A DNA stretch of 64,000 nt from Argopecten irradians (Eukaryota; Mollusca; Bivalvia; Pectinida; Pectinidae): the NCBI RefSeq assembly GCF_041381155.1, contig NC_091142.1:8861340-8925339 (forward strand). Direction: 5' to 3'. Numbering within the stretch: position 1 is the stretch's first letter; each line of letters opens with the position of its first letter. Shown piece by piece: positions 2,431 to 57,126 of this stretch. Under the pieces are notes generated by a model. It was given only the letters and a program-made list of their open reading frames with translations. It ran no database searches and had not been told where the DNA came from. The position numbers and the translations under genes are program-made.

Positions 2431-5400
2431 AGGAATCTGACTGTGCAGTGATGGTTCGATCCTCATCCAACGAACTCATCAACAGTAACGATGAATTTTC
2501 AGACGCTGTATCCACCATGTCCTTTGATCCTAATGGTATGTTGTCATCAAGGTTAAAGGTCATTTCACATACCTATCTACTTTTCAGGGACCGCATTATC
2601 TATGTGGTTAAAATGTTCTGACATTACCACAAGCCCTCCACCTCTGGTTTGGTGCAGTTGCCAGATATTGGCTGGTAGTTAGTGGTTTTTCTCTGAGTAC
2701 TCGGTTTTTCCTCCCCCAACACACCTGGCACGTCGTTAAATAATCCTAGCTATAAATAGGACGTTAAACTAATAAAACAAAACCTTGACTTTTGATTCCA
2801 ATCTCTCCCAGGGTGCATTGCGGTCCCCACAATTTCACCTATGTAAACGGCCCTGCGAAATTTCAAGATTCTTGAAAAACGTATTTATGACACATACTAA
2901 GTTATTAAGTACCTATTGTAAATTTCTTTTTGTATCGTTTTCCTGTAAACGAGTGTTGGTTCTGACGTAATATAATTTGATTATTCAATATCAAACCAAA
3001 CAATATTGGATTCTTTTGCGGATACACTAGATAATGGTACATGGCGATAAATATCTAGGTCAAAGGTCATCCCACATGGTACATTAAAAGTACTAGATGC
3101 CATTGAGAAAACAGATAAGAGAAATAGTGAAATAAAAGCAATATTGTCAGTTGAGAATCTTATCATGTGTCTTATAGTGGCGTGAATATAAAATATGCAG
3201 TAAATCTGTGATTTATAGAAGTGTAACAGGCGAGGTTTTCACCTGTCTAGATGTGAACAAATATAGTTACCCAGGTTCGGTACTCTGGGTTCCGTACCAG
3301 TTATGATATAAAAAGTTGAGGAAAGAAAAAGTCAAAATCAGTACTCAAACTTAGGACCTTTGAACTACTTTACAGATTAAACCCTTATTCGTGTATTAAA
3401 TTAAAACCTTAATATTTAAAAAAAAGTCATTGTTTGCATATCACTTCATATCATGTGAATATGCTTTAAATTCTACACTGATGATTCACAGAAATAAAAC
3501 CGCCACAAAATTTTACGCCCTTCAAATTTAACAGCTAAACAGTATAGAGACGTACCACACAATTTAATAACTTAGTCATCTGATCACCTGTAGTCAGCTC
3601 AGTCCAGTTCTGTAAATGTAACAGCAGCTGATGACACTATAGCTGAGAGTTATCTCCCTTGCCTTGTCAAGTTTAGAAATAAAAAATTTTTTTTTATTGT
3701 TTTCAGATTCTCCTTTTGAGCGACGCCTGACAAAGTACAAAATGCATTACCATGACCGTCACCAGGATAAAGAAACGTCACCCCCACACTCTGCAGGCTG
3801 TAAATCCAACGTGTTGTTTTTGGTGTTACATGGAGGTATTTAAGTTGTACTGTTCGTTGCTTTCAAATAAAACGTCAGATATTTAGATTGTCATTGAAAG
3901 TGTTCATCTAATGTTGTTTGTACAAATAATATTTGTTGATCTTAGATAATGTAATAAAATTACCGTATTTAGCGGTAGTTTTATTTTAGTGGTTTTCGCA
4001 GGCTGTCTTAAAATTTAAAGAACAAATTCATATACAGCGGTAATTATGTAAAAGGATATTTCTTTCATTTAATCACCCCATTGCAATAATTGATATGCGC
4101 ACTAATAAATTATTATTTATTATTTTTGCATTTGCACTAAAATGTGACTGCTAAATTAAGTATGTTTACAATAACTAAGTGCTAGTTTGGGTGACATGTG
4201 TAATGTTTAGTAATACCTATTACTTATATATTGCCATATTTGTTTGTGACTCTAGGAAGTGTACTGGACTCCAGTAACCTTGAACAAGCTTCCAAGCGAG
4301 TGGATTTCAACATGATCAAGTCAACGTTTGAATCTGTGATACGTAACAACTATCCCGGAGCCCTCGGCCATATTGCCTTCCGTCTCGTTCCCTGTCCACA
4401 GATCTGTACAGAAGCACTTAGTATATTGTCCAGGTAAATTGCCAGATATACTCAGTATATGGTCCAGGTAAATTGATTATTAAATTTATTATTAAATTTA
4501 CTCTGTATATGGTCCAGGTAAATTGATTACCAAATTTACTCTGTATATTGTCCAGGTAAATTGATTACCAAATTTACTCTGTATATTGTCCAGATAAATT
4601 GATTAATAAATTTACTCTGTATATTGTCCACGTAAACTAATTACCAAATTTCTGTATATTCTCCAGGTAAACTGATTAATAAATTTACTCTGTATATTGT
4701 CCAGGTAAATTGATTACTAAATTTACTCAGTATATGGTTCAAGTAAACTGATTACCAAATTTACTCTGTATATTGTCCAGGTAAATTGATTACTAAATTT
4801 ACTCAGTATGTGGTCCAAGTAAACTGATTACCAAATTTTCTCAGTATGTTATCCAGGTAAATTGATTACCAAATTTTTGATTACCAAATTTACTCAGCAT
4901 GTTGTCCAGGTAAATTGATTACCAAATTTACTCATTATGTTGTCCAGGATTACCAAATTTACTCAATAATTTGTCCAGGTAAATTGATAACGAAATTTGC
5001 GTAATGTAATTAGAATTTATCAGGGTTGACTTATTTTGTGATATAAATCAAAGTGAAACATTTTATCTTGATACTCAAGTGTAGCATTCTTGCCAAATAT
5101 TTTTAACATCTTATTAACAACCAGGGTCATTTAAGGTCTATGAGATGTAGGAAAGTCAGAGTACCCAGAGAAAGACCAATAACCTACAGTCAGCACCTGG
5201 CAACAGCCCCATATGGATTGAAAACCTTCAGGGATGAAGGTATATTGTGGTTATATGACATCTTAACCCCTCGCCAGCAAGACCCCAATTTTGTGTAAGC
5301 AAGACCCCAATTTTGTGTAAACAGGTAAAGTTTAGATTTTTACCAGTGTTTAAGCCTGTATTGATTGCATTTTTTTATCTTTCAGTGTAAGTCCGTACAG

Positions 5401-8400
5401 TTTTGAATCTCTCGCACCAAACACTGGGGAATCCGGGGTGATTTGGACTCAAGAGTTCGTTCCCTTGGGAGCCATCTCGCTATTTGTGACTTCAAATCCA
5501 GACTACCATGAGTATGTCAACAAAATGGTCGCTAAAGCGAACCTAGTCTATCACGAGTTTATGTTGTCAGATGAGGGTAAAGGTTTCACTGGTCAGGTAA
5601 GTATCTATAGACTGGGAGGGAGACATGTGGGCTGGGTAATTCTATGAGGTGGGAATTTTTGTGAAGTGGAAAATTGTGTGAGATGGGGAATTGGAGATGG
5701 GAAATGATGTGAGGTGGGGAATTTATATTTGAGGTAGGGATTTATGTGACATAGGATATTACATCAGAAAGAAAGTGATACAATAAAGGAATTTTCATAG
5801 AAAAAAAATATGGAGTGGGAATTGGATCTATATTATTGGAAATATGATAGAAATAATATTATCTATTTTCAGCTATAAATTTATGACAAGGTTATATATA
5901 TATATATATATGTATGTACATGAAGGTTTCTGACACTAACGATTGTCACCTCTGATGTAAGATATCATCTCTAATGTTACAGGTTTGCCTGCTTGCCGAT
6001 GCTATGGGCTCATTGTTAGGGTATGATGCCTTATGTCAGGCTAACGCTAACTACACGCGCGGTCTCAGTACGTTTGACAGTCATTGTAGTCTCAATGATT
6101 CCGACTCCTCAGCCATTCGTCAGGAACAAGACCAGGATTCCACCCTCAAGCGTGACGCTCAACTCGATCCGTCAGCATCAGCATTCAGACGAGGAGAAAA
6201 CACACAGAATTCTGGGAAATCTAACCTAGAAACATCACGGCAACTGAGTCACAGTGACCCAGATTTGTCAGCAGGAGGAAGCCTGAGTGACAAACATTTT
6301 AATAGAAGTGATTTTGTGTCGTCGGAGTGTAAACTACGGCGTCAGTGTTCTGCTAACGTACGCCCACACCAGACTCACCTGAGCGTCAGTGATGGCGCGA
6401 AGGACGAGTGTGGGCGCAGGACTAGTATGGGCAGTTATAATGACGGCTCTGTTATAAAGTTTGACTTTGATGTCTCAGATTTCTTTATGTTGGGATCGCC
6501 CCTTGGACTTGTTCTGGCCTATCGTCGTATGTTTTTCGGGGATGATCGTAATTGTAAGTATATTTTTAATTACTATGACTCAATAAATTTTCAAATCTGA
6601 ATGTTAATCAAATACATTTTTAGCCCACCATCATCAGATGGTGGGCTATTCAAATCGCCTTTCGTCCGTGGTCCGTCCGTCCGTCCGTCCGTCCGTTAAC
6701 AATTCTTGTTACCGCTATTTCTCAGAAAGTACTGAAGGGATCTTTCTCAAATTTCATATGTAGGTTCCCCTAGGACCCTTATTGTGCATATTGCATTTTG
6801 GGACCGATCGGTCAACAAGATGGCCGACAGGCGGCCATCTTGGATTTTGATAGTTAAAGTTTGTTACCGCTATTTCTCAAAAAGTGCTGAAGGGATCTTT
6901 CTCAAATTTCATATACAGGTTCTACTAGGACCCTAGTTGTGCATATTGCATTTTGGGACGGATCGGGCAACAAGATGGCCGACAGGCGGCCATCTTGGAT
7001 TTTGATAGTTAAAGTTTGTTACCGCTATTTCTCAAAAAGTACTGAAGGGATCTTTCTCAAATTCCATGCATAGGTTCCCCTTGTACCCTAGTTGTGCAGA
7101 GTACCTTTTAGGACTGATGCATAATGCCTTTCAGGACTGATTGGTAAACAAGATGGCCAACGGGCCGCCATCTTAGATTTCATTGTTGAAGTTTGTTACC
7201 ACTTTTCTTAGAAAGTACTATAGCGATCTGTCTCAAATTTTATATGTAGTGTGTTTGAAAAAGTTTGAAAAGCAGGGAAAAGATCCCTCTTTCCATTGTC
7301 AGACATAGATCATTCTTTGGTGGGCGCCAAGATCCCTCTGGGATCTCTTGTAACACAAATGAATCAAAACAATGAAGTTTGAAATATTGATACTTTTGTG
7401 GTCTCAGGTTGTCCTATGCCATTTTAGAGTTGTTTATATAAAACTAGTGAACAGAAGTTTTTTGTTGTTTCAGGGTGCCTTATGTAAAACTATTGATGTT
7501 TTTGTCGTTTCAGGGTGCCTTATGTAAGACTATTGATGTTTTTGTCGTTTCAGTGTACCCTATGTTAACATATTGATGTTTTTGTCGTTTCAGTGTACCC
7601 TATGTTAACATATTGATATTTTTGTCGTTTCAGGGTGCCTTATGTAAGACTATTGATGTTTTTGTCGTTTCAGGGTGCCTTATGTAAGACTATTGATGTT
7701 TTTGTCGTTTCAGTGTACCCTATGTTAACATATTGATGTTTTTGTCGTTTCAGGGTGCCCTTGTAGTCCTGCGTGCCATCAAGTGTACAACATGATTCAC
7801 TCCAGTGACCCTACAGCCGCTCGCCTGGAACCATTACTCCATAACAGTTTTAAACACATCTTCCCCGTTAAAGTGCCACGCTATACAAAGTTCCCAGTAG
7901 GTGACGGAGAGCCTATACATGTGGGTAAGTCTCCTGATATCTCTGCTGAAATCTGTAAATTGTAAATACCAGCAAAACATTTTGAATTCCTCTACTGTTA
8001 TGCAAGCATGTTAACATTTCATAAAGAGGAATCAATGTACCTGTATATACCTGCAGAAAAAATTAAAACTAATCTATTGCAATTCTCAAAATGGTGTTGT
8101 CTTTTGGTGGTGAATAAAAAAGCATTTGTCAGTATGAAAATTATGGCACATGTTATTTTAAGCCATGTGAGCTATACAGGTCCTGTAGGCCTTTTGTGAT
8201 ATTTTGTATGAAATAGATTACTGTTTTACTAAATCTGTTAAATGTTCTTGATAAAAAAAAAAAAAAAAAAAAAAAAAATGTTTTTGATAAACAGGTGAAT
8301 GGTTGTTATGTAGGAAATACTGCATCAATATTTAACTTATTCAGGATTTTGAAATGGTTCAAAGTTGGTAGATATTTTGATAATATCAGTCAATTATTAT

Positions 8401-11400
8401 TGGGCAACAATATCAATCTAGTTAAAATTAGACTTGTAGCAAATCTCTGCGATGGCCTGCTGAGGTGACCCTGAGCAGGGTGTTGTTAGATTTTGTTTAA
8501 AAGCATCATAGTGAAGTGGAATTACAAGTCTAATTTTAATTAGATTGGCAACAGTATTGAACATCGCTTAGCTTAACATGTCAGTTGAGCAATACAGGCC
8601 CTGTGGGCCTCTTGTTACCATATGAGGTAGATACTAGGTAAGTGTTTTGCTGATCTGAGAATCAAAGTTTGATAACCATGTGACTGGTTGTTACAGTTGA
8701 GACCATACAGAGTAACCTGTCCCTGTTCATCAATAATCGGCGCGGATCGGCCGGGCCCAGTCTTCAGCGACAAAACAGTGTGTCCAGTGTCGTCAGTCAA
8801 ATCTCCGGACTTGGAGAATCCATGGTGTCCAGTATAACAAATGGTAAGTCTGTCCAAATTAAGATGATTCCATGATAATGGTCTGTATTGATGCTATGTA
8901 TGATCTTGTATGACCTTGTGTGACCTCTATGTCACAGTGACCAGTAAATGGTGGGATATCTTATTTTGTTTCAGTGAACAGTAACTTTAGCTGTGTTTGA
9001 CCTTGTATGACCTTGTGTGACCTCTATGTTTCAGTGACCAGTTACTTTAGCTGTGTTTGACCTTGTTTGACCTTGTGTGACCTCTATGTTTCAGTGACCA
9101 GTAAGTTTAGCTGTGTTTGACCTTGTATGACCTTGTGTGACCTCTATGTTTCAGTGACCAGTAACTTTAGCTGTGTTTGACCTTGTATGACCTTGTGTGA
9201 CCTCTATGTTTCAGTGACCAGTAACTTTAGCTGTGTTTGACCTTGTTTGACCTTGTATGATCTTGTGTGACCTCTACGTTTCAGTGACCAGTAAGTGGTG
9301 GGGTAACAAGCGTATAGATTTTACCCTATACTGTCCTGAAGTTCTCCACTCCTTCCCTACATCAGCCTTGCCTCATCTCTTCCACTCCAGTTTCTGGGAA
9401 TCTTCCGATGTAGCTGCCTTTGTACTCCGACAGGTAAAACGACAACTGACCACTGGTCAGATTTGTTTATTTGGACGCATGCTACCTAAAGATTTTCACA
9501 ACACTCTGCCTTAACAAGGTTCATGCGTTCTTGATGGAAAACAAAATTTAAATAAAACATAAGCACACAAATGTACAAAATTTGGCTATGTACGTACTGG
9601 ACAGTTGTTAAATTTTGCAGGTGTAAAATTTCTCAATCTAATGTTTGGAACTTAATCACAATGTTTATTTTTGAAAAATATTTTTAAAACCTTTAAATGC
9701 ATCATTTATTCGACAGGCTGTAATATTTAAAACTATGATTTTAATAAATTTCACAAGGTATTACACTTAACGAATTTGGATTGATCGAAGAATTAAGCAA
9801 AATTACAACCCTTGCAAATATTTGCAGCTATACATTGATGTTTCGATAAAGATGACAAAAATGTTACTTTTTTTCAGATTTTACGACATGACATCCTCAG
9901 TTTGGACATGGAAAAAGATCTTGACCGATTGACCGTCAGTCCAGAGTCTGCCAACCTTCCCCGAGAAAAATGGCTCAAAAGGAGAACCACCATCAAAGTG
10001 AAGGTTAGAGTTCAAAGGGTTGAGGGTTAAAGGTCATAATTAGTTCAGATATTATAATGTAGTCAAGTGATTGATATTTAAGGTCATCAACCAAAAGATT
10101 AAGGGTTAAAGGTCATTATTCAAAAGTTGATACTACTTAAAGGTACCTAACTTAATCAAAATGACTTTAAATTTTTAGAAGATTTGTTTACCAATAGAGG
10201 GATTTTCCTACATTTGGAATAAAAAAAATTGAAATAAAAATGGGATCTCATGTATTTGGTTAATATGTGTACAAAATAAAATGCATTTAATTTTAAAGTT
10301 GATTTTCAAAAAAAAAAAAAAAAACAGAAAAACAGAAAAAAAGAAAAATGTTACTTACATTTATATGCAGTGCACATATTGATGCAAGGCTGACAAGTTA
10401 AATAAGAATGATTATTTTGTGTTGTAGAATCTGCAGCCCAATCACCGTGGTAATGATGTTATAGTAATGGAGGACACAGCTCAGGAACTAAGTGCTCGCT
10501 TCATGTATGGCTCTTTTGATGTCACCTCATTGTCAGGAGAAAAGGTAGGCTATAGCAGAAACAAGGTTAAAGCAGCAGAGTCAAGGTCATATCTAAGAAA
10601 GTCAAGGTCACATATAAACTAGTCAAGGTCACTTACAACAAATTCAAAGTCATGTTATAATACCAATAATATCATATTCATTTTGTACCTCACAATTAAA
10701 TTAAGACAGAATACTGATTTTTAATTAGCTACACACATGGGTACTGTGCAGCAATCTAAATGGTATGATATTGAATGTGAACCTATTGTGACGTTACCAT
10801 GACAGGACACCAAACTTGCTGGGAGCCCAAGGGACTGGATTAAAAGTGATCAATTTAGCCATATTGCTATAAATATATTCTATTCTGAAAGTTATGAATG
10901 GATGTTGCTGATATTTCTTATGTAGCATCCCTATGGGATATGGTTTAAATTTTCTTTTGAATTAGAGAGCTTCATGTTACAGTCAAACCTCGATGTATCG
11001 AAGTTCAAGGGACCGTCAGAAAAAAACTTCGAAACATCAAGACTTCGAATTATTCGTGGTTGAAATTAGACCGATGTTTTTTTTTTTTACCATGACCAAC
11101 TGTGGTAGTTATGTACATGTCGTCTCCGTTCCGTAAACTTTATACACATTGCATTTACCACAAGCAAAAGAAAATAAAAACGAAGTATGCAATTAATCAT
11201 ATGTATTGCTATCGTTAGTAATATTACGGAATGAATATAAAAACGAAAACACGTTGTAAAAACGAAACTAAAAAGGAGGAACCGAAAGCGTTACAACACC
11301 TACAAAATACTTCGATTTAGAATGATCGATTTGCTCCAGTATTTATGCCAAAGTTGTGCAATGTAACAGTTTTGAGTATGAGTTTATTAATAATGTGGCT

Positions 11401-14400
11401 CGCTATTTACCGTTCCGTAAATTCTACAAACCGCTACCAATGGCGGCGGCGAACATCAAAAACGACTAACTGTATCTTTGCCATACTAATGATTTAATAA
11501 TGCAGCTTGTAAAAACAAAGCACCAGGTATCGGCCTGATTAGTGATATTAATTATCTTGATGATATCAAGCAAGCAACACAAGCTGTCATAATCCCTATT
11601 GTCCAGCGAAGGGCCGTCGCGAGACAGCTAACGTAGCTGTGACAGCATGCCGCGGGGTATCGGCGAACACCTGATCTGTACAGGTAAATTTTTATTCGAA
11701 TCATCGAGTGTCAGTAACCTATGATTCTATAACAAATGGTCTATGAAAAAAGTTTGATACATCGAGAACTTCGATTCATAAAACTTCGATTCATACATGG
11801 GTTAGTTAGTAATGTTATATAGTGAAGAAATTCGGGACCAGACAAAAAGTTCGATACAGCGAGAAATTCGATTCATCGAAGTTCGAATCATCGAGGTTTG
11901 ACTGTAATTGAATCCGTAACTGCAATACATGACACTGTTTTGTCACGTTCTAAGCCAGAAAAGATTTTGTTAATATAAAATATGAGTTTTTGTCATATTT
12001 ATTGAATCAGGTAAGAGATACAGGTCCTCTGGGCCTCTTGTCTAATCCTAGTGTTGATCTAATACCAGTAAATACTCTATGTATAGGTGGACATCCATGT
12101 AATGGACCAGTTGACAGGGGAGTGGAAGTTTCTGGGAACGGCCGTCACAGACAAACATGGCCGCCTCAACTACACCATCCCGGAGGATAAACGCCTACAC
12201 CAAGGAATGCATTCTGTCAAGATTGTTGTAAGGTAACCATGGCAACCACAGCCTAAATTAGCAATTTTATTTTAGTCGTGAAAAAGGTAACAAAATCCAT
12301 AATTTATCCTGATTTCTGCACATAAAAAATCTTCACAACTGACACTAACTTTATTTGTTGATTTTGACAGAGGGGACCACAGTTGTGCAGATTTCTTCCT
12401 GACAGTTTTACCAAAGAAGACAGAAACTGTCGTTTTCAGCATTGATGGTTCATTTACTGCAAGTATGTCGATCTCGGGTCGCGACCCCAAAGTCCGAGCC
12501 GGAGCAGTAGATGTTGTTAGGTGAGTTTACAGTAAACTGCTTAAAACAGGAAAATAATGTCCATGAAACAAAATGAGGATTCATATAATGGATTTCAAAC
12601 ATTCTCTTGTCTGTTATTAGTAGAATAATAAACACAGAGGTGATTGATTAACAGAGCGCTGACAAACTTATCTCATGACTTAATAGTTTTTCTCTGACTC
12701 TATTTGCTGCTTTTCAACAAATTTGATATTAATTTTAATGGCTTGGTTTTTCAATGGATTTTTTGTTTCATTTACACGTATACGTTCATGCAGACATCGC
12801 GAAATATGCCGGTCCGACGGACAAGTCCGGCAAAATTTGACTCGGACCGGCTATTTTAAAATGCAGTCCGGACCGACCGTCCGGCAATTATTGAGTACCA
12901 GAAGTAGTTAGAAATGGTGTCTGAAGTATTATGCAGGTGCGGAATGTGGCAAAAATGTTAACTGCATAAGATAATCATGAAAACAGCTGCTTGGATACTA
13001 ATAGCAGGAAGTAATGTTTACTTAAAAAATTCACATTAATGTTCGGTCTAGCAAAATCTTGTTCGGTCCGGCTTACTCACAGTCCTTGCTGGTCCGAATG
13101 TCCGGCCATTTTTTTCAACTTTCACGATGTCTGTTCATGATTATGCTGTGTTGATTTAGATTCTGTTTTACTTTATTTCCCGGTTTTTTATTTGTGACAG
13201 GCATTACCAGGACCAGGGGTACTTGATCCTGTATGTGACGGCCAGACCTGACATGCAGCACCGTAAGGTAGTATCCTGGCTAGCCATGCACAACTTCCCG
13301 CACGGAATGGTGGCCTTCATGGATGGACTGTCTAAGGAGCCTCTCCGACAGAAACTCAACTATCTCAAGGGCTTGGTGTCCAAAGTGAGTGGATAGGCTA
13401 ATTAATTTTCTTTATATAATATTGGTCACCATACATGAATCTGTGAAAATGAAAGATGTGTGAATGGTCAAGATAAAGAAATGTGAAGGATCAAGATGAC
13501 CTAAATTAAGGATGTTAGAGGTCAAGATGATCTAAATTAAGAATGTTAGGGGTCAAGATGATCTATAGCTATGTGTCATGCTTCATTTGATGTGTACTGA
13601 TTTGCACTGTCTTCACTTTTCACATTAAAGCTTCATTTTAAATTCTCATACCGCTTGGATTGAGCAAAATCATAATGTTATGTGATACTGCTGAAGATAA
13701 TTTTAGAGTTCTGTTCCATTGTTGCCATTGTGCTGAGAGTTAGAAGGCCCTTTCATAAAATATTATTTTCCAGCCTCAATAAATAAAATAAGAAAAACAT
13801 CGTCATGGCATTTTGGTGTCAATGTATGACTTAATGTGCACCTGTATAAATTTTGGCCTGACCCCCCCCCCCCGGGGACAGGAGGGGCGGGGCCCAATAG
13901 GGGAAATTAGGTAAATCCTATAAATAGCTACTTGTCCTAGAGGTCTGCATGGATTCTGCTCAAATTCGTCACAAAAATCCTTGAGGGAAGGGGAACAGAA
14001 CTTGTATAAATTTAGGCTCTGACCCCCTGGGGGCAGGAGGGACGGGGCTCAATAGGGAAAATGGAGATAAATCCTATAAATAGCTACTTGGCATAGAGTT
14101 CTGCATGGATTGTAACAAAATTTGGCCATAAACATCTGGGGGAAGGGGAACAAAAGTGCACCTGTTCCAAATCTCATAACTTCTGCCTGCGGCATTGAGC
14201 TAAACTTTGCTGAAATGATAGATGGTCTTGACTAAGTGTTGTTATCTTAGATGACTGCTAACGAAGCTGCGATCTTGAATCTTGAATTCTTGAACCACTG
14301 TTTTTAAATTTTTTCATTTTTTTCCAAAGAAAATTGACTCCAACTTGCCATAAGTGGTTCCAGATATTAGTATCTTAAGTATCACAATATTTTGTATGTG

Positions 14401-15296
14401 TTATAGAGATAGGATGTTGTGATTCAATTGAATTTGGCTTTGATTTTGTATGTGTTATAGAGATAGGATGTTGTGATTCAATTGAATTTGGCTTTGATTT
14501 GTTTTAGGCGGGAATTGTGTACAAGGGTGCTTACGGCTCCAACAAAGACATATATGTATATCGGGAACTTGGACTTACATCTCAGCAGATGTTCATTGTT
14601 GGAAAGGCTTCCAAAAAACAACTAGGACAGGCACAGGTATATCACACATATCTGAGAAAATAATAAATGGTGTCTCTGGTGTATGAGAAGCAAATAAAAA
14701 ACTTACAAGTGACTTTTCCTCATCAATAATCGAAAGGCCTGGGGTACTCTTATTAGGCATGTAGCATGCTTGGATGAAGGGCTACTAAGTTTGCTTAAAG
14801 GAATGACCTTGAATTTCTCTCTCTTTTATTTTTCATTCATTTTTTACAGTTAGTATTTAAATGCAGTTGGGTATAAAACTACATGATGATGAATTGGAAT
14901 TGAAAATTTAAAATGACCCATGTGTGATATTCCTGTTCTACATGTATTTATTTGTGTCTGTAACAGATTCTATCAGATGGGTATGCGGTTCACCTTCAGT
15001 CACTACAGCTGCTAGGACGGGCCGCGGTGGGAAATGCTCGTATGTTTATAAGGAAAGGTTGTATGACAGTCCCTAACCAGAGTGAGACCAGGAAAAGTGA
15101 GGGCAAGCGTGCAGTCAAACGAGTCTCGTCTAACTCAGCTTCAGGTGGCGACTTCCTTAAACCACAGGATGTGTTAATCACAGTGAGCGACACAGGAAAT
15201 ACAATTGTACAAAACAGTCAAGCTGATTTCCGTACAACGGCCCGCGCCCGAGGCTCTTCCCCTCGTCCCAAGGTACCCACAGATGTTCCACGATGA
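2431..15296 (+). CDS. PITPNM: Membrane-associated phosphatidylinositol transfer protein (PITPNM/Nir/RdgB), 3' part
   Basis: Fifteen exons join in frame: 2431-2535, 3707-3835, 4256-4433, 5386-5596, 5983-6553, 7754-7924, 8697-8843, 9285-9433, 9878-10003, 10428-10544, 12087-12232, 12371-12520, 13201-13384, 14508-14636 and 14967-15296 (TGA). All introns are GT-AG. The first exon starts in phase (two bases of a split codon), so the gene continues upstream. The reading gives 946 whole residues. It carries the family's [10 protein letters not shown] block, [14 protein letters not shown], a DDHD domain ([16 protein letters not shown], then [37 protein letters not shown]) and a C-terminal LNS2 domain. 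Family members move phosphatidylinositol and phosphatidic acid between ER and plasma membrane at contact sites and restore PIP2 after phospholipase C signalling. The PITP domain and FFAT motif are expected upstream of this window and are not seen. The family assignment is firm; which vertebrate paralogue it matches is not decided. Confidence 0.95.
2632..2785. mobile_element. SINE-like 3' fragment
   Basis: The stretch 'ctgagtactcggtttttcct', later 'cacacctggcacgtcgttaa' and 'aggacgttaaac' followed by an A-rich end, resembles the 3' portion of short interspersed elements common in molluscs and other metazoans. Family assignment is from memory of the pattern only. It lies in the intron 2536-3706. 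Confidence 0.5.
3955..4155. mobile_element. Non-autonomous element with 'accgtatttagcg' end
   Basis: Opens with 'attaccgtatttagcggtag' and 'ttttattttag'. Near the other end it has 'actaaaatgtgactgctaaa'. A relative with the same order of motifs is at 55235-55440, where 'ctaaaatttgactgcactaa' closes it. It fills most of the intron 3836-4255. Confidence 0.45.
4421..4995 (+). repeat. Donor-derived minisatellite after PITPNM exon 4256-4433
   Basis: About 14 copies of a unit of roughly 38 bases, 'agtatattgtccaggtaaat' plus 'tgattaccaaatttactc'. The first copy is the exon end itself: exon ...AGTATATTGTCCAG|GTAAATTG. Each unit therefore repeats the last 14 exon bases and the donor. It fills much of the intron 4434-5385. 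Confidence 0.92.
5597..5982. other. PITPNM intron with short GGTGGGAATT repeats and a TA run
   Basis: The first 150 bases contain several imperfect copies of 'gaggtgggaatt'. A (TA)n run lies at about 5893-5911. No coding sequence seen. Confidence 0.7.
6621..7351. mobile_element. Bivalve-type interspersed repeat with about 155-base internal units
   Basis: Starts with an inverted 'agcccaccatc/gatggtgggct' hairpin, then a (GTCC)n run at about 6672-6697. Units begin 'gttaccgctatttctca' at about 6708, 6863, 7017 and 7191. It ends 'ggatctcttgt' at 7351. Fragments with the same head or tail occur at 46390-46440 and 51570-51740. It lies in the PITPNM intron 6554-7753. Confidence 0.8.
7464..7763 (+). 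repeat. Acceptor-derived minisatellite before PITPNM exon 7754-7924
   Basis: Eight tandem 40-base units with 'gatgtttttgtcgtttcag' followed by GGTGCC or TGTACC. The last unit is the real acceptor, with the exon starting GGTGCCCTTG at 7754. Seven perfect AG acceptors with pyrimidine tracts thus precede the true one. Confidence 0.93.
8176..8196. repeat. GGCC hairpin repeat end
   Basis: 'acaggtcctgtaggcctttt', a variant of the hairpin 'caggccctntgggcctcttg' that recurs at 8594, 12020, 15920, 34145, 40271, 44197 and 44276. Here it closes a repeat in the intron 7925-8696. A poly-A run lies just after, at about 8254-8278. Confidence 0.7.
8417..8544. mobile_element. Small inverted-repeat element, family 'AATTAGACTTGTA', copy 1
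   Basis: Left end 'gttaaaattagacttgta' (8421-8438) and right end 'tacaagtctaattttaatta' (8523-8542) are inverse complements. The internal 'gaggtgaccctgagcagggt' is shared with the copy at 48983-49258. Confidence 0.75.
8926..9300 (+). repeat. Acceptor-derived minisatellite before PITPNM exon 9285-9433
   Basis: Units of 60 bases with 'cctctatgtttcagtgacca' and 'gtaactttagctgtgtttga'. The true acceptor is at 9284, with the exon starting TGACCAGTAAGTGGTGGGG. About five units carry the acceptor plus the first 11-12 exon bases. The outermost copy (8936-8957, TGACCAGTAAATGGTGGGAT) matches about 20 exon bases, so the array looks seeded by the junction itself. Confidence 0.92.
10128..10345. other. 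PITPNM intron, low complexity
   Basis: The intron 10004-10427 has GGTCA-rich short repeats, then A-rich sequence (10304-10345). Nothing coding seen. Confidence 0.6.
10980..11904. mobile_element. TA-flanked pogo-like non-autonomous DNA element, 925 bases
   Basis: Left end CAGTCAAACCTCGATGTATC at 10980 and right end ATCATCGAGGTTTGACTG ending 11904 are inverted, with TA on both sides (10978-10979, 11905-11906). Near the ends are many CTTCGA/TCGAA motifs. No transposase frame is seen. CAGT..AACCTC ends and TA duplication fit the pogo/Tigger branch of Tc1-mariner. It fills most of the intron 10545-12086. Confidence 0.75.
12020..12041. repeat. GGCC hairpin repeat end
   Basis: 'acaggtcctctgggcctctt', same family as at 8594 and 44197. 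It is 46 bases before the exon at 12087, so it sits close to the acceptor. Confidence 0.7.
12786..13140. mobile_element. Inverted-repeat element rich in GTCCGG
   Basis: The ends 'catgcagacatcgcgaaa' (from 12787) and 'tttcacgatgtctgttcatg' (to 13139) are near inverse complements. Inside, 'ggtccg', 'gtccgg' and 'ccggac' recur on both strands, many as inverted pairs. It lies in the intron 12521-13200, ending 61 bases before the next exon. Confidence 0.65.
13480..13565. repeat. Three copies of a 31-base repeat
   Basis: 'ggtcaagatgatctaaatta' with 'agaatgttag', near the start of intron 13385-14507. Confidence 0.7.
13850..14240. mobile_element. Interspersed repeat with 'ggcggggcccaatagg' units
   Basis: Two units of about 165 bases, each with a C-rich 'tgaccccc', 'aggaggggcggggcccaata' and 'aaatcctataaatagctact'. 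Relatives are at 33990-34165 and 34915-35340. These bodies are usually followed by the GGCC hairpin end. Confidence 0.75.
14391..14507. repeat. Tandem duplication just before a PITPNM exon
   Basis: A unit of about 62 bases ('gtatgtgttatagagatagg' ... 'attgaatttggctttgattt') occurs twice, and the second copy runs straight into the acceptor at 14507. Confidence 0.9.
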
Positions 15297-25064: not shown

Positions 25065-25155
25065 ATGATGGCAAAAGATGAACATATTGGTAAGAATGGC
25101 GGATACGTGAACAAAGGCTTGGAACTTGAGGAGGCTCCTCCGGGGGAGAAACAAA
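25065..25155 (+). CDS. Candidate first coding exon, possibly of the SPNS gene
   Basis: An open frame with ATG ATG at 25065 codes MMAKDEHIGKNGGYVNKGLE then LEEAPPGEKQ and stops at a strong donor (AAA|GTAAGT) at 25155, in phase 1. If joined to an acceptor at 29453 (tattcag) the frame runs R-Q-M-S-K-F into the SPNS start, adding about 32 acidic/Gly-rich residues to the N-terminus. The frame is open further upstream, to about 24966. Another 5' exon or an unrelated small gene is equally possible. Confidence 0.3.
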
Positions 25156-25479
25156 GTAAGTATAATAGAATCTTATTCCTTGACCACGTGGTGACTAATT
25201 TACATATACACAAAAGTCATATCATATGATTTTTATAAATATATATAATATGATGATTTCTGAGCATGCTAGCTAGTGGTTTAGGGGAGTATATACTAGC
25301 GATGGACAATGACCTACTAGATCAATGTACAGATAATTAGGATAGACAATGATAAACAATGAACATGTGTACGTGTGTAGACGGAACCACGTGTTGACAA
25401 GACGCGTCGCGTGAACCTGGTTACCCCGGTAAATAGAAAGTGCTGGACGTTTTGATTGGGTGGGGTACGTGGAGATTCC

Positions 25480-26975: not shown

Positions 26976-27709
26976 AACGAACAATGTTTATAACGAAGGC
27001 ATTTTGTTGGTCCATATGGGTTCGTTATAACCGTGTTTTTGTTGTGTTTTTCATATTATTCCATTCTGATCTACTAAATGTAATTGCACTCATTTATCCG
27101 TCATTGCGCGTGGACGTAGTGAAAGGCAATGAAGTAATAATAACTGAATCAGAATCATGGCCCACTGGTCGTTACACTAAAGATTCAACCACTAGTCTAT
27201 TAACCTATATCGTTCTATTTTAGTATGCACGCGTGGTTATCGAGTAATACATCAATGTAGACTTGATATAGAGGTCAGGTAACAATAGAAAGGTATCTAA
27301 TATTACACATACCTGTTGATACAATGGTGCATTCTCCCTCCCACCCTCGATACTCGAGGGGTTACTATCACTGACGTTAAATCCACCCCTGGATTATTTC
27401 ATAGTAAAACTGAAGGCAGCTGAACCACAGTGGACCGCTATACGTCTCTCTTTTGATGTATATCTATGAATAAATTACCTGTTCTGTTCTGTTGTCGCCT
27501 GTTTTACTTTGAGGTAGTGCAGGGGTGCATATAACGTCAGTATTAGTAACCCTTGGAGTATCGAGGATGACTTCCTCCAGCTCCTTGCATTACTTAGCTA
27601 GTGAATGTTGTTAACATTGTCAATAGTCGCAGGCGATAACCGGATGATAATGATTGGCATTCATAGTTCGAGTCTCTATAATTATCGATCCTTCGTGTTT
27701 CGAAATATC

Positions 27710-29280: not shown

Positions 29281-29286
29281 ACTTAG

Positions 29287-29442: not shown

Positions 29443-29458
29443 TGTGTATTCAGGACAA

Positions 29459-38400: not shown

Positions 38401-41400
38401 GCCTTAAGGAGGCCACACAGGCTGGGTACGTATATGTAGGGGTAGTTTGGGGGTATAACCATCTGGTCTCAAGGAGGCCACACAGGCTGGGTAGGTATAT
38501 GTAGGGGTAGTTTGGGGGTATAACTATCAAGTCTCAAGGAGGCCACACAGGCTGGGTAGGTATATGTAGGGGTAGTTTAGGGGTATAACTATCAGGTCTC
38601 AAGGAGGTCACACAGGCTGGGTAGGTATACGTAGGATTTAGTTTGGGGGTATAACTATCATGTCTCATGGAGATCACACAGGCTGGGTAGGTATATGTTG
38701 GGGTAGTTTAGGGGTATAACTATCAAGTCTCAAGGAGGCCACACAGGCTGGGTAGGTATATGTAGGATAGTTTGGGGGTATAACTATCAAGTCTCAAGGA
38801 GGCCACACAGGCTGGGTAGTTATATGTAGGATAGTTTGGGGGTATAACTATCAAGTCTCAAGGAGGCCACACAGGCTGGGTAGTTATATGTAGGATAGTT
38901 TGGGGGTATAACTATCAAGTCTCAAGGAGGCCACACAGGCTGGGTAGTTATATGTAGGATAGTTTGGGGGTATAACTATCAAGTCTCAAGGAGGCCACAC
39001 AGGCTGGGTAGTTATATGTAGGATAGTTTGGGGGTATAACTATCAAGTCTCAAGGAGGCCACACAGGCTGGGTAGTTATATGTAGGATAGTTTGGGGGTA
39101 TAACTATCAAGTCTTAAGGAGGCCACACAGGCTGGGTAGTTATATGTAGGATAGTTTGGGGGTATAACTATCAAGTCTCAAGGAGAGGCTGGGTAGGTAA
39201 TTGAAGACAATCAGTAACCATGACCAGTTGTCTCGTCAATGGTATACAGTGAAACCTGACTTTACCGACACTCTGGGACCAAGTAAACATGACAGAAAAG
39301 ACAGGTGTTGATAAAGTAAAAAGTTCGGTAAAGTTTCACTGTATGAGAAATATACTGCATCTATTAGCCAGTTATTTTCGCCAGGGATGATTATTTTGCG
39401 ATTTTTTGGAACATTACTATGTTCATGAAAATTTGAAGAAATGGTTTAAATATATATACCCTTAAAGCCATATTGCAAAAAATTAAAATCGCTGAACTTT
39501 TTATTTTTTCTTGTTTTTAGATCAAATAGTGAAAATGTTAACTCACAAAAACTAATGGCTGTATGGTAATTGTGGTTAACTAAGGTTATAATGGTGTAAA
39601 TATTTAATTCTGGCCAAGCTCACGTGTCTATTGTTTGATAGGCCTAACTACCTATGTTCTGGAGAACCCTTAAAGGTTTGGTAAGTATTTCATTTAGAAT
39701 TTAAAGCTTCATTTTGTTTTTCAGCCTTTGATTTAAATCATGGTGGATGTTTTTTCTCCTAATTTTGATAAGAGTACTATGAAATTTATTTACCTTTTAT
39801 GAAATTTTAGGTCACCCAAGATGAAGTCTCAGTTTAAAGTCATCTATTGTTATCGCCTTTTGTCCGTCCTCATGTGTTGCATGTCAGTAAACAATTAACA
39901 CTTTTGACTTCTTCTCCAAAACTACTGAAGCAAATTCAATGAAATTTTGCATACACCTGCTAATTGAATTGCTCCCCCCTCAGGGGACTGGGAGGAGCCT
40001 AAAGAGGTAAAATTGATTAAAATTTCAAAAATCTTCTCAACTATAGCATTGATGGAATCACATGTTCTTCATAGATTGAAAAGTCTTAAGGCCCTATACT
40101 TAAATTATGAATTTCATGGCCTTGGGGTCTCAGATTTTTACTGAACTGTATATACTTTGTATTTTCACATTAGTTCTGATTGAACCTTAAGAGTTTGATG
40201 GGTGGAAGGGGTTAATATAGTGATTACATGCCTTGTTACATTCTATGTCAGATCTGAGGTGACCCAAATTAAGGCCCAATGGGCCTGGTGTTACATTCTG
40301 TATCAGATCACAGGTGACTGTTAAGGCTTCATGGACCTCTTGTTTAATTTGCTTACACACGAGTCATACTTCTTCATATTAAGTGCAAAAGGTTGAGGAA
40401 ATAAGATCATTGCATGGTGTATGCTTGGAATAGTGTTTGGTAAACCTTTATATATACTAAAGTGTTTATACCAAAAGAATCTTTAAGATTTGCATGTTTG
40501 TAAAGGCTAGTAAGAATATCTTTTTATCTTTTACTTTTTTTATCACTTTTAATTTTTTATGCAATGCTTTCCACCATACCTACAGGAAGTGCTTTCGCCT
40601 GAAAGTTTTTGATGCCATGGTAACAGCTGGTCAGTGTATTTTGACATATATATTATTGTTGTAAGTGGTAAACTTTGTAGGATGTTTACTATCTGGTTAC
40701 CAAAATCAGTAACCTAATTATATGAGACCTGGGCATGGGTATACATTTCAAGGGAAGCCCTAGGCCTGTCTTCTATAGAAACAAGTTCCCGAGGAAAATA
40801 GGGATTCCAAGATCCCAAAACGATATGTGTAAAGTCTGATTTACCATCTATTAATCCCACCTTGTGCTTGTGACATCATATTTTGATGTGATTTTTTTGG
40901 TGTCATAATTACCAAAAGATGAGACTAATTCTTGATTGAATATTTTGCATATTTTACCCACATTGTTTTGGAATATCAAAACCTATGTATTATTATTATT
41001 AAAGAAAGCCGCTTTGTTTCTGTTTTTGAATATTTAAAAATAACTATATGATTATTAAAACCTCTGGATTAGTATTATATTGCTTATGATTATTTTGGTT
41101 CTGTGATGAATGTCCACGAGACTCTTGCAAAAATGTGTCGTAAAAACATAGTGAGGTTCTCTTTCAGACTTAACTTACAACTGGCATTTTTTTTGATATT
41201 TTTATTTGTTATAACATTTGATTCAATTTTAATCAAACATCTTAATAATTATTATCAATACTTGAACATCATGCTATTACCCAACTGTCATACGACTGTT
41301 ACAACAATGACAGGACATTGAAAAATCCAAGATGACGACCTCATAGATCGATGTTATCAGGCAGGTTGTCCGCAAATTTGACCCCTCACCACTTTTGACC

Positions 41401-43658
41401 TTTATTTCTTCTCTAGGAGGGGGGTCTTATTTGCGGTCAAATACAGTATTAGTGTGTGTTTCAATTGTGTTTCATTTGCAGAAATCCATTGATTTGGGGC
41501 TGATCAGATGGTTGTCTTTCAGGATGGTCTTTATAATAGTTTGTTGACCTTTACTTGTACATTTTGCTTTTGATGCAACTTTTATTTCTGAAATTGTTTA
41601 TTTATTTTAACATTTATTCTGTTGCTTTCAGTGTGGCGTTTACCTTTGGAATTATAACCGTGGTTGCTGGGTTTGTTGGTGTGGCATTGGGAGCAGAAAT
41701 TTCACGGCGCTACAAAAAGATTAATCCACGTGCGGATCCTCTGGTGTGTGCCTTCGGCCTGTTGACCTGTGTTCCATTCCTATTCTTTGCCCTGGTACTG
41801 TCACAATGGTACACAGTGGCAACATGGGTACGTATACATATCTTAAGTTGGGTAGTATCGCAAATCTAAAGTTTCAACAGGTTTATAAGTAAAGGGATAG
41901 CCAAGGTAGGATTTATGATCACATTTTTTGGGAGTTTGATAATTTGCTTAATTGTTGTGATAAAATAGTTTGGGGTCAAATGCAAACTCTTATTGTCTAC
42001 AAATCATTATATTGCTTCGATGCAATAACATTACATTTCAGTATATGTAGAATACAGGATTGTGTATCTTTGGTGTAATAAAATTTCAGTACAATATCTT
42101 AAATCTTTGCCATTATAACTATACATTTAGATGGGATGTCATATATGTATTGCTTTTTTAATATTTCAGATCTTGATATTTCTAGGAGAGACAATGTTAT
42201 GTTTGAACTGGTCTATAATTGCTGATATGTTATTGGTAAGTTCTACACTACCTGTGACTTCTATAGAAAAACTGTTACCCTTTGTTACCCCTCGTCATGG
42301 CTACAACTTGTAGTCAGACCTTTTACAGAAGATGAGATAGTATTAAATTGTCCTTCATATTATGAAAATTAAAATCTTCATTTTGCTACTAAAACAAGAC
42401 TAATAGAGCCTTTGATTAGTGCTGGAAAGTAATTTATTCTGAAATTAGAGGTCAACAGTTTTCATATATTCTTATTTGATTTTCAGTATGTTGTTATACC
42501 TACACGGCGGTCGACTGCAGAATCTGTACAAATTCTTTTCTCACATGCCCTTGGGGATGCTGGTAGTCCATACATTGTAGGGTTGGTAAGTAAAAGTTAT
42601 CCGTCCATTACATTTAGGTGAATTATATCATTTGTGCTGTTTTTGTGTTCAACAGTACTTTCAGTACTTTGATTATTTTAGGTGTCCTACAGTCTGTCTA
42701 GTACTTTCAGTACTTTGATTGTTTTAAGTATCCAACAGTCTGTCTGGTTCTTTTGGTACTTTGGTTGTTTTAAATGTTCATCAGCCTGTAGTACCTTTAG
42801 TACTTTGATTGTTTAAGGTGTCAAACAGTTTTGTGTTGTACTTTCAGTACTTTGATTGTTTTAAGTGTCTTGACAGTCTGTAGTACTTTCAGTACTTTGA
42901 TTAGTTTAGGTATCTGACAGTCTGCAGTGCCATCAGTACTTTGATTATTTTAAGTGTCCGACTGCCTGCAGTACCTTCAGTACTTTGATTGTTTTAGGTT
43001 TCTGACAGACTGGCCAAGAATTACAATGCTCCTGCCGATTCACCGTTTGTACAGTTTAAGACTCTTCAGACGGCTCTGTATATCACCCCATTTATTTGTG
43101 TACTTGGAGGGGGATTCTTCCTTGCCACTGCGCTCTTCATAGAGAAGGATAAAAATACAGCCAAAAGAATTACACAAGGTAAGTCTGATAAACTGATGGG
43201 TTTAATGAATTGGGAGATTGAGTTTTTAATGAATTAGTCAGGTTGTGTTGTGAGAGAGGTTTGATGGAATCGGTGACGTGTAGTTGTTATAAAGATTTGA
43301 TAAATTACGCTGTTGAATTGTGAAAAATATTCAACAAACTCCATATCTAATATGATGGGTTGTGTTTTTACAAAGTTTTATAGAATTTTTTTTTTTTTTT
43401 TTGGGGGGGGGGGGTGAGTTTTGTAAAATGCTTGATGAACACTCTAGCTCTACACCACTTTCTTGACTATAGGAAATTAACTGTAATTTGTGAAGATGAG
43501 ATTTATGGATATATGGATGTATTATCCGATGTTTTTGTGTTTTGTCCGTCACTATAACAGGTCAAGCCCCTATACAGGAGGCCAGTGACACAGACAGTTA
43601 CGACGACCCGATCATACTGGGGTCGGAAGACGCGGAGCGACTCGAGGCAGTGGCGTAA
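29459..43658 (+). CDS. SPNS1: Spinster-family lysolipid transporter (SPNS1-like), complete
   Basis: Eleven exons in consistent phase: 29459-29705, 32979-33181, 33587-33738, 34219-34285, 36411-36547, 37730-37858, 41632-41827, 42170-42235, 42487-42585, 42998-43178, 43561-43658. Together they are 1575 bases, 524 residues plus stop, close to the usual length of about 530. It is a major-facilitator protein: a hydrophilic N-terminus of about 60 residues, then [13 protein letters not shown] in the first membrane segment, the loop motif [59 protein letters not shown] and [15 protein letters not shown]...[20 protein letters not shown]1 exports lysophosphatidylcholine and lysophosphatidylethanolamine from lysosomes with protons; SPNS2 exports sphingosine-1-phosphate at the plasma membrane. 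The NPRADPLVC and IPTRRSTAE blocks and overall fit favour SPNS1, but an invertebrate Spinster may predate the split. ATG 29459 was chosen because it opens the frame; see the possible extra upstream exon. Confidence 0.95.
29706..31905. other. SPNS intron 1, first part, with a 'ttagactacaggtagacac' repeat
   Basis: About seven imperfect copies of 'gatttagactacaggtagac' lie at 30235-30500. At 29770-29850 a repeat related to 46020-46220 is present ('attagcgctccttcc', 'aaggagttgatgaagct'). No exon seen. Confidence 0.6.
31912..32935. repeat. Minisatellite before SPNS exon 32979-33181
   Basis: About 40 units of 'gtgatttctgtgtgatttcc' plus 'aatgat', with length variants. On the minus strand it gives spurious frames of [13 protein letters not shown] repeats. 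It ends 40 bases before the acceptor. I do not see exon bases copied in the unit. Confidence 0.92.
33200..33600 (+). repeat. Minisatellite filling SPNS intron 2, acceptor-like
   Basis: About 12 units of 30 bases, 'ttctattgtctataatcgta' plus 'attacaactc'. Several units read attacagTTCTTCTATTG, close to the true junction attacag|CACTTCTATGG at 33586/33587. The array spans the whole intron 33182-33586. Confidence 0.8.
33739..34218. other. SPNS intron 3 with interspersed repeat and GGCC hairpin end
   Basis: Body similar to the 'ggggcccaatagg' family at about 33955-34085; hairpin end 'tacaggccctattggccttt' at 34144-34163, 55 bases before the next exon. Confidence 0.6.
34602..34694. mobile_element. 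93-base inverted-repeat element
   Basis: A perfect 20-base inverted repeat: TTATTCTCAATATCTTTTGG at 34602-34621 and its complement at 34675-34694, with a 53-base loop. It lies in SPNS intron 34286-36410. Confidence 0.85.
34915..35345. mobile_element. Interspersed repeat with 'ggcggggcccaatagg' units
   Basis: Three units with 'agagttctgcatggattata', 'aggaggggcggggcccaata' and 'agaggttagtcct'. Same family as 13850-14240. Confidence 0.75.
36538..37330 (+). repeat. Donor-derived minisatellite after SPNS exon 36411-36547
   Basis: More than 20 units of 19-38 bases built on 'actcaaaatgtaaatacatc' and 'aattttatatacata'. The first copy is the junction itself, exon ...ATCAAAAT|GTAAATACAT, so each unit repeats the last seven exon bases and the donor. 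Confidence 0.93.
37829..39196 (+). repeat. Donor-derived minisatellite after SPNS exon 37730-37858
   Basis: About 21 units of about 64 bases: 'gtctcaaggaggccacacag' + 'gctgggtaggtatatgtagg' + 'ggtagtttgggggtataact'. The exon ends GTCTCAAGGCAAAGAGGCCT then CACAGGCTGG|GTAGGTATAT, so each unit repeats about 26 of the last 30 exon bases plus the donor. The 3' half (38760-39190) is nearly homogeneous, a sign of recent expansion. Confidence 0.95.
39247..39341. mobile_element. TA-flanked 95-base non-autonomous element
   Basis: CAGTGAAACCTGACTTTACC on the left and GGTAAAGTTTCACTG on the right, TA on both sides (39245-39246, 39342-39343). Same style of ends as the 925-base element at 10980. Confidence 0.75.
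39815..40345. mobile_element. Interspersed repeat ending in GGCC hairpins
   Basis: Starts near 'ttttaggtcacccaagatga', passes 'ctccaaaactactgaagcaa', and has 'aaggcccaatgggcctggtg' at 40271 and 'aaggcttcatggacctcttg' at about 40323. It lies in SPNS intron 37859-41631. A related 'ggttttggagaagaagtaga' repeat is at 63540-63800. Confidence 0.6.
40775..41000. mobile_element. Non-autonomous element with inverted halves, copy 2
   Basis: 'gattccaagatcccaaaacg' and 'cccacattgttttggaatat' face each other across about 190 bases. Relative of 2025-2215. Confidence 0.5.
42640..43012 (+). repeat. Acceptor-derived minisatellite before SPNS exon 42998-43178
   Basis: Six or seven units of about 50-60 bases: 'cagtactttgattgttttag' followed by GTGTCCTACAGTCTG, GTATCTGACAGTCTG and similar. 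The true exon starts GTTTCTGACAGACTGG after the same 'gattgttttag'. Each unit repeats the acceptor and about 15 exon bases. Confidence 0.92.
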
Positions 43659-54515: not shown

Positions 54516-54521
54516 TTTATT
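54516..54521 (-). promoter_or_regulatory. Possible polyadenylation signal of the nucleoside hydrolase gene
   Basis: AATAAA on the minus strand about 48 bases after the stop codon at 54569. Position and orientation fit; the motif is short and the region AT-rich, so it could be chance. Confidence 0.4.
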
Positions 54522-54568
54522 ATTAATTTCTTTCTTAATTTTCAGTTGCTTCTGCCGAAGGTCCAATG

Positions 54569-57126
54569 TTATAGAAGCATTGCATCATATAACACTCTCG
54601 CCTTTTCCACACTGACCGCTGTAACAGCTTTGATATTGACCTTTCGACCCATAACTTTTCTCCAATCACAAACGAGTTGCCCGCGTGTAATGCTTCCACT
54701 CATTTCTACCTCGCCATAAAACTCTTCAGTTTCCGTGGCAACTGATCTATCAATTATGAAAGCCATGGCCAGTAAATCACATGATCTATAATGTGATCTA
54801 TTCGCAGATTTTAAGCGTCCGATGGAATATTGAACAATGCTGTTTTGAAAATGTCCCTTCCTAGTATCTGTTTTAAGCCAGTTCTCTGTCCATGTCTGAA
54901 GAAAGAAATAATAATGTGGAGGTTTGATTTCTGTCATTTAATTGAAGTACTGTAAACCAAACTCCTTTCGCGACCGATTTATTTTCGCGAATTTCGTGAT
55001 CAAGGTAAAGTCGCGAAAGTTTATCTCTGCGAATTCTTGCACAATTAAATACAAAGATTATCTCCATTTAATTTCGAATCCGCGAAACTAAATCTCTGCA
55101 AAAATGTTTTATAACGGAAATCGCGAAATTTTGTAACCGCGATAGAAAATTGGTTTACAATAATCTGTCATTATATCGGTTTTTTAAGATGATAAAGGGA
55201 GATAGAAAGAACGACATCGTACTGTAAACATACTTACTATTTTAGAGGTAGTTTTATTTTAGCGCTTTTCGCTCTGTCTTTAAAGCGCTGATAAATGTAT
55301 AGTGCTAAATTTTGTAAAATGGAATTTCCTAATTGCGCTGATTTATATCCGCGGGAATAAGTCATAATTTACATTTTTTTGGCTTTTCAGCTAAAATTTG
55401 ACTGCACTAAAATAATTCGGTAATATAGTGTCAAAAATATGTATTTTCATACTGAAAGATGATTTCCTAGTAGAATACATTGTTATATTCAAATGTCTGA
55501 ATTCTTTTAGCCTAATATCCTATCCTCGATATTCCAGAGGTTGCTATCACTGTTTGGTCCTTTGATATACATCAAAAGAATTGAATAATATCTTTGTAAT
55601 TGAGTGTCGCTCTTTCTGTAATCTTCAAAGAAAGTTTGCGCATACCTCTGCATGCTTGATTTATAATTTTTTTTTCCTCATGAACTGCCTTTAGTTTTGA
55701 TATGAGATAGGCCATTGGTGGATAAAAGGACATTGACAGTAACCCCTGGAGTATTGAGGATGGACTTACCCATGACTGTCCATTGTCTGCACATGTCTCC
55801 CAGGGAACCAGCAGGATAGGACATCCTATCTCTTTTAATACCACGTGGGCCGCCTCTGGGTCACTCCGGAAATTAAATTCCGCTGCTGGGGACGTGTTTC
55901 CTTTTCCTAAACAAGAATTATCTCTATTTCTATCCGGATTCATGGATGATTAAAAAATTGTCTGTTTTTCTCTACTGCAGTTTTCATACCCTGTATACGG
56001 ATACATTTTTGACCTTGAACTGATAAATGTTTGACATTGGACTGATAAATATTTGACCTTGACTGACTTTGGACTGATAAATGTTTGACCTTGAACTGAT
56101 ATATGAGTGACATAAAACTGATAAATCTTTTACAATGAACTGATAAATGACTGACCTTTAACTGACAAATATTCGACCCTGTACTGATAAATTGACCTTG
56201 GATTGATAAATGACTTGCCTTGAACGTTTCCTCCCATTATCACCATCTCCTTCAGCTTCTTTCCGAAGTCTGGATCAAGTCTCAACGCTACTGCTATGTT
56301 GGTAAGAGGAGCTAAGGCAACTAAAGTTATCTCCCCTGTAAAATATATGTTGATATATAAACAACTATTATTTATTAATATTAACCCAGATACAGCATTC
56401 ACAGCATGCAAGATTTTCTTAGATAAATTTGATACGGAATTCACCTTAAGTTTTCTTCGTAATTATGACGATGACTCATTCGCAGTCACGTTAACTTCAT
56501 GCAAATTTCAGATCAAGCATTTTCTTCACGGAAAATACACCATGTAGACCTACATGTATAGATATTTGCTTGTGTATGGCAATTATTATTTATACGGTAA
56601 TAACAATGAGGACATGGTTTTTTACATAGTTTTCCTTTACCAAAATTCTTATATTTCATAAACACGGGGAAAATGAAGAGCCTATCGAAATAGAAAACTT
56701 TTGCTGTATGACAGTGAATGTATATACATTGTATCTTTATAATTGTTTTACCTGGATACTGGTTTACCAATCGTAATAGAGCTAGAGTCGCGTGTTCTGA
56801 TTGGATGAGGTTCATGTCAACTGGCTCCGGATTGGCTACATCTCCCATACCGTCTCTGCCGTGGTAATGTGTCGCATCTGGACCCTCGCCGGTAAGTGGT
56901 TTTTCACAACCTTTGTATACGGGCACCTAGCAAGAAGGATGATCCATATTGACAGCACATTAACTGGGTTTAATACCGTCTTAAGAAGAGGAGGTTACTT
57001 ATAGTTTGTTTGTTACAGTTATTAATATAACCGTATGTGTAGTGATTTTCATAGGGCCAAAATAAAATTATGTCTGTTTAAGGTTACATTGGCAAAGAAA
57101 ATAGGAACGGTAGGTCGGGAGGATTT

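Follow-up and report, generated by a model that had tools for sequence, protein, structure and literature searches.

Why do tandem arrays in scallop introns carry copies of the very exon-intron boundaries that they adjoin? The question is raised by a stretch of 64,000 nucleotides (nt) from Argopecten irradians (contig NC_091142.1, positions 8,861,340 to 8,925,339 of the forward strand), called the window below, in which eight coding introns of three genes (rdgB/PITPNM, spinster or SPNS, and an inosine-uridine nucleoside hydrolase) contain a minisatellite whose unit includes the adjoining splice junction. Very probably these are mirage-type minisatellites, i.e., tandem duplications that straddled a junction and were tolerated because splicing removes the extra copies and leaves the protein unchanged. 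An initial annotation of the window had pointed to the same arrays and had suggested either a process that duplicates DNA at splice sites or selection for redundant ones.

Arrays That Copy Their Own Splice Junctions

All eight junction-spanning arrays are present where the initial annotation had placed them, and both boundary types are represented, with four donors and four acceptors. They are listed here as putative mirages; the numbers of exonic nt copied are estimates from two slightly differing analyses, and some copy numbers come from Tandem Repeats Finder (TRF).

4420..4998, plus strand: donor mirage in rdgB; 38-nt unit, 13 aligned copies, 13-14 exonic nt followed by GTAAAT; true donor between 4433 and 4434
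7459..7761, plus strand: acceptor mirage in rdgB; 40-nt unit, 8 aligned copies, TTTGTCGTTTCAG followed by 6-8 exonic nt; exon start 7754
8905..9296, plus strand: acceptor mirage in rdgB; 60-nt unit, 6 aligned copies, CAG followed by 12 exonic nt; exon start 9285
33197..33600, plus strand: acceptor mirage in SPNS; 30-nt unit, about 12 copies (TRF); exon start 33587
36538..37305, plus strand: donor mirage in SPNS; 21/34-nt units, 24 aligned copies, 8-10 exonic nt; true donor between 36547 and 36548
37837..39199, plus strand: donor mirage in SPNS; 64-nt unit, 21 copies, 21-22 exonic nt; true donor between 37858 and 37859
42653..43012, plus strand: acceptor mirage in SPNS; 44-nt unit, 6 aligned copies (7.6 by TRF), TTTTAG followed by 7-15 exonic nt with mismatches; exon start 42998
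56000..56226, minus strand: donor mirage in the nucleoside hydrolase, the weakest of the eight; unit of about 22 nt, degenerate, 7-8 exonic nt; true donor 56219

In the rdgB array at 8905..9296 the outermost upstream copy (about 8905-8958) holds more of the exon, ACCAGTAAATGGTGGG. The SPNS array at 33197..33600 occupies nearly all of a 405-nt intron and copies about 14 exonic nt with mismatches. At the hydrolase junction the claimed copy is there, with the correction that the true donor on the minus strand is of the GC type (AAG/GCAAGT).

These arrays were also recovered blind. For every boundary, an ungapped in-register alignment was run against the intron to which it belongs; among the 48 ends of 24 window introns exactly the eight array ends scored 13-35, while the remaining 40 scored 9 or less. 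The control, 60 same-length pieces of other introns per end, reached a top score of 14 overall and of 12 for the eight array ends.

The boundaries are defined by the following gene models:

2430..15296, plus strand: 3' part of the rdgB/PITPNM gene, the 5' part lying upstream of the window
25065..43240, plus strand: SPNS gene, with alternative first exons at 25065-25155 and from 29459
55570..57685, minus strand: modelled part of the inosine-uridine nucleoside hydrolase gene, ends approximate

They comprise 27 coding introns inside the window (14 in rdgB, 10 in SPNS and 3 in the hydrolase), close to the 28 counted initially, and every junction used is in frame. The rdgB and hydrolase models match Pfam. 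The rdgB model is 100% identical to the predicted A. irradians protein P0121; the SPNS model is 98% identical to the predicted A. irradians protein P0001 and aligns with it and with 17 other homologues. The exon models at the junctions, on which the whole observation depends, thus hold.

Arrays in the Upstream Part of rdgB

A second scan covered 82 introns (164 ends), i.e., the 24 of the window, one more of SPNS, eight more of rdgB (two inside the window, one across its start and five further upstream), and 49 belonging to a DNAH5 gene on contig C1. For rdgB, a false exon had been placed on an array copy by spliced alignment, and two introns were merged by hand before counting. Eleven ends scored at least 13, namely the window's eight and three within the five upstream rdgB introns. 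The donor of rdgB exon 2 is followed by the largest of them, a 32-nt unit of 28 exonic nt and GTAA in about 104 copies. This array is nearly homogeneous, with 100 of 103 spacings being exactly 32 nt and 88 of 103 units belonging to one of two variants; the other arrays are more diverged. A later exon of the upstream part has a 61-nt unit in about seven copies, of which 46 nt are exonic and encode YWGMQNKIERFIHDIG. At exon 1 (L030:6290-6720) the unit fuses the two ends of the coding exon and lacks the exon's middle; TRF reports 16 copies of 144 nt, and 49 donor copies were aligned within them.

The eleven boundaries find their best match in their own intron with scores of 13-50, and in all other introns scanned with scores of just 8-12. 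This bears out the earlier view that the arrays are not one spreading element and that their common feature is position.

Source of the Copies and Choice of Splice Site

Comparison of coding sequences identifies the exon as the source of what is copied, because the copied rdgB stretches, among them YWGMQNKIERFIHDIG and KIYHIGSHLPG, sit in coding exons common to P0121 and the phosphatidylinositol transfer family; the exon end copied in a mitofusin gene (see below) is conserved coding sequence as well. The opposite direction, in which an intron is gained within a pre-existing array and the exon ends are carved from it, follows a route that has been proposed for new introns (Rogers; Zhuo et al. 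2007; as cited in excerpts of PMC3087553 and PMC2812944), but it is hardly credible for arrays whose exonic copies are codons common to distant homologues.

Reading frames remain intact when the exon-proximal copy is used. P0121 joins its exons at that copy in all six rdgB arrays (five by spliced alignment, exon 2 by the translated join), and P0001 likewise fits the exon-proximal copy in SPNS. In 6 of 12 examined arrays, a copy at most 200 nt away is identical over 16 nt around the site; local sequence therefore cannot decide between such copies, and position or exon definition must.

We propose that a short tandem duplication, with a unit of about 20-65 nt, would by chance straddle an exon-intron boundary. 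At a donor, the extra copies would come to lie on the intron side of the original site, and at an acceptor upstream of the exon-proximal copy. Provided that the spliceosome continues to splice at the exon-proximal copy, as the predicted proteins suggest, the extra copies would leave with the intron, the protein would stay the same and the duplication would be neutral, unlike one of equal size inside the exon, which would mostly be purged. Unequal exchange or slippage could then expand and homogenise the array.

The composition of the units is consistent with such an origin. Their exonic share ranges from 0.15 to 0.88 with a mean of 0.46 and is compatible with a uniform distribution (13 arrays, Kolmogorov-Smirnov P 0.46, a small sample of hand-entered estimates), as expected if duplications arise at random and happen to take in the boundary, whereas cutting at the splice site would look different. 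The suggestion of a process directed at splice sites, for example by breakage or slippage linked to co-transcriptional splicing or R-loops, is not borne out by this distribution.

Selection for redundant splice sites fares no better and appears highly improbable. Six donor arrays have kept GT in most of their copies (12/13, 22/24, 20/21, 48/49, 103/103 and 5/6), and two acceptor arrays have AG in every copy (8/8 and 6/6), as selection would have it, but AG survives in only 3/10 aligned copies of the SPNS array at 33197..33600 and in 3/6 copies of another acceptor array. Compared with the other columns of the alignments, the splice dinucleotides are slightly better kept in 7/10 arrays and worse kept in 3/10 (sign test P 0.34). 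Moreover, splicing at the best-matching copy up to 200 nt away would change the reading frame in 10 of 12 arrays.

Placement Compared with Chance

Scallop DNA is rich in arrays; tandem repeats make up 21.7% of the genome of another scallop, A. pleuronectes, according to excerpts of PMC10225492. Several introns are nearly filled, so some arrays must touch a boundary by chance placement; for all eight arrays, the initial annotation had considered such placement unlikely. A comparison of TRF array edges with shuffled placement in the window genes was weakly positive: 9 of 26 intronic arrays have an edge no more than 15 nt from a boundary, where 4.8 would be expected (P 0.012), and stricter sets of arrays gave 6/16 (P 0.058) and 5/14 (P 0.075). 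The weakness of this excess reflects several short introns that are occupied largely by arrays.

Terminal copies that span the boundary were scored under uniform placement with an allowed overhang of 20 or 46 nt, both chosen by the analyst, and with the edge of each confirmed spanning array set to the boundary. By this measure the window has 8 spanning arrays among 13, where 1.5 or 2.7 would be expected (P 5e-7 or 1.3e-4); these P values are optimistic because the window was chosen for its striking look. All intronic arrays sampled give 12/34 against 2.7 or 5.4 expected (P 8e-7 or 0.0016), most of this excess coming from the window set. Genes outside the window set contributed 21 arrays (one of these lies in the window at 869-1088), and four of the 21 are spanning ones, compared with an expectation of 1.2 or 2.7 (P 0.03 or 0.28); in two dynein genes alone the figure is 1/15, as chance predicts. 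The spanning copies, together with the genome-wide donor-motif excess described below, speak against chance placement, while the edges and the dynein genes agree with it, and we consider it unlikely, though not far-fetched, as the whole explanation.

Donor Motifs and Arrays Elsewhere in the Genome

A position associated with donors is also supported genome-wide. Tandem triples were counted, i.e., a motif occurring three times with gaps of 12-41 nt (the range given for CAGGTAAGT), and the same 9-mer reversed served as control. The donor 9-mer CAGGTAAGT formed 2652 triples compared with 73 for its reverse, at 19,404 and 5,409 single occurrences, respectively, which amounts to 13.7% versus 1.35% per occurrence, or 10.1 times. 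For the donor 9-mer AAGGTAAGT the triples numbered 1128 versus 207 and the singles 13,185 versus 19,562, giving 8.6% versus 1.06% per occurrence, or 8.1 times. Big arrays dominate these counts because overlapping triples are counted. The acceptor motif TTTNCAGG showed no genome-wide excess of triples (4700 versus 4918 reversed, without single-motif normalisation). When loci were counted by hand on contig C1, among the first 100 listed places of each search and with one reversed motif as control, 5 of 87 donor-motif loci were arrays compared with none of about 93 reversed-motif loci (Fisher P 0.025); P rises to 0.11 once six reversed-motif copies that cluster more loosely, at spacings of 0.36-1.6 kb, are scored as an array.

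Outside the window, arrays were looked for mainly by donor motif, and those found there are donors plus one two-copy acceptor. Flanks were examined for seven donor-motif arrays, a non-random sample consisting of the first listed on contig C1. Three begin at confirmed coding exon ends, in a guanylate cyclase-like gene (exon matching Pfam PF08376 and PF00211), mitofusin (PF04799 and PDB 1t3j) and sepiapterin reductase (PDB 6usn). Two more (L038 and L043) begin at candidate exon ends, and no exon end was found at the other two, L035 showing no coding signal and the L036 array continuing upstream. The sepiapterin reductase unit (L044:1200-1600) is the exon end minus about 14 internal nt, amplified, and parallels that of rdgB exon 1.

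Dynein genes gave a different picture. No end among the 49 DNAH5 introns reached 13. That gene has a 39-nt-unit array that starts 3 nt inside the intron at a donor (L034:5021-6260); it carries no exonic bases and was excluded from the counts. The 36 introns of a DNAH5-like dynein on contig C2 yielded one donor array, whose true donor lies upstream of an exon-like array copy, and one two-copy acceptor duplication. Also in this gene, ends with scores of 10, 11 and 12 were left out by the threshold of 13, those at 11 and 12 having no exonic match. In the acceptor duplication (L040:5364-5620), 21 nt of the exon start recur about 50 nt farther upstream, changed at two or three positions, which looks like a possible early stage of an array.

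In total, boundary arrays were found in 8 of the 27 coding introns inside the window, in 3 of the 5 rdgB introns upstream of it and in 2 of 85 across the two dynein genes. The window is unusually rich in them compared with the dyneins, and its genes are unusual because 11 of their 33 introns carry such an array against 0 of 49 in DNAH5 (Fisher P 1.4e-5). Taken with the 4/21 spanning arrays elsewhere and the flat acceptor motif, this makes the phenomenon less general than the initial annotation implied.

The donor counts bear most directly on the idea of a mutational hotspot, according to which DNA at active splice donors duplicates more often, through R-loops or co-transcriptional breakage, and donors thereby seed arrays. 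The enrichment of both donor motifs, the locus-level difference and the share of window arrays spanning a boundary are what a hotspot would produce. Nevertheless, we find it rather doubtful: breakpoints have no fixed place relative to the splice site, the one acceptor motif counted is not enriched, the dyneins are at chance level and the locus-level P depends on how one cluster is scored. In addition, the motif control was not matched for gene content, and a general excess of arrays in transcribed DNA could mimic the result. In its widest form, which we offer as a tentative speculation, splice donors throughout scallop genomes would be hotspots of tandem duplication; arrays of their own border would accompany several percent of the strong ones, introns would grow by amplification of the 5' splice site, and the spliceosome would pick the first of dozens to about 100 near-identical donors by position alone.

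Tolerance of junction-straddling duplications, which we continue to favour, has its own difficulties. Pure tolerance predicts no excess of arrays at junctions over intron interiors, yet the window arrays and the counts of donor motifs go beyond this prediction, and an additional factor may therefore be involved. Furthermore, the choice of splice site is read from predicted proteins and not from RNA, and the copy numbers come from one assembly.

Other Features of the Window

The location of three further arrays requires correction. The array at 869-1088 lies within an rdgB intron, and those at 25527-25977 and 27779-27884 are intronic, not intergenic, because the alternative first coding exon of SPNS at 25065-25155, which matches the start of P0001, precedes them. 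Directly upstream of the second SPNS start codon there is a 78-nt perfect tandem duplication (29286-29442) with AG-like ends, which may involve a 5' untranslated exon. Intron 6 of SPNS contains a 39-nt cassette exon (39642-39680) flanked by AG and GT; homologous residues are present in the Ylistrum protein P0004. Fragmented open frames at 52215-53540 resemble what we take to be a decayed retrotransposon reverse transcriptase.

Comparison with Known Systems

Introners are one sequence family found at many loci. The scallop arrays share with them the tie between repeated DNA and splice sites, but each scallop boundary is copied in its own intron only, and no dispersed family was seen among the 82 introns scanned. 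A second group of models derives introns from tandem arrays or AG/GT duplications (Rogers 1989, Zhuo 2007, Gao and Lynch 2009, as cited; human internal tandem repeats, excerpts of PMC2812944). Tandem copies with splice signals at exon-intron boundaries are common to these models and to our arrays; the models create a new intron, whereas the scallop introns carry the array.

The closest counterparts are the mirages of amphioxus, tandem repeats spanning exon-intron boundaries in Adh3 and the globins BflGb6 and BflGb9, for which excerpts of PMC3087553 report regular splicing (by reverse transcription PCR) and length instability. Both sets have tandem units that include the boundary, differ between loci and occur at donors and acceptors. 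The kind is thus already known, because the scallop arrays match the description of mirages in the features tested. The differences lie in the host, a mollusc, in the scale (three adjacent genes contain eleven arrays, contigs C1 and C2 contain others, and copy numbers reach about 104), and in the donor-motif excess measured genome-wide. No report of boundary-spanning minisatellites in molluscs was found in the literature searched, to which most subscription journals did not belong, and within that literature the host, the scale and the donor-motif count appear to be new.

Such arrays offer natural experiments on how splice sites are chosen, illustrate one simple way for introns to lengthen and supply the raw material proposed for intron gain. 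Mirage-type repeats can now be traced in a second animal group after amphioxus, one that is rich in tandem repeats and has genomes available, which makes the question of a hotspot at splice junctions directly countable. The work on amphioxus mirages rested on few genes, as far as the excerpts of PMC3087553 go.

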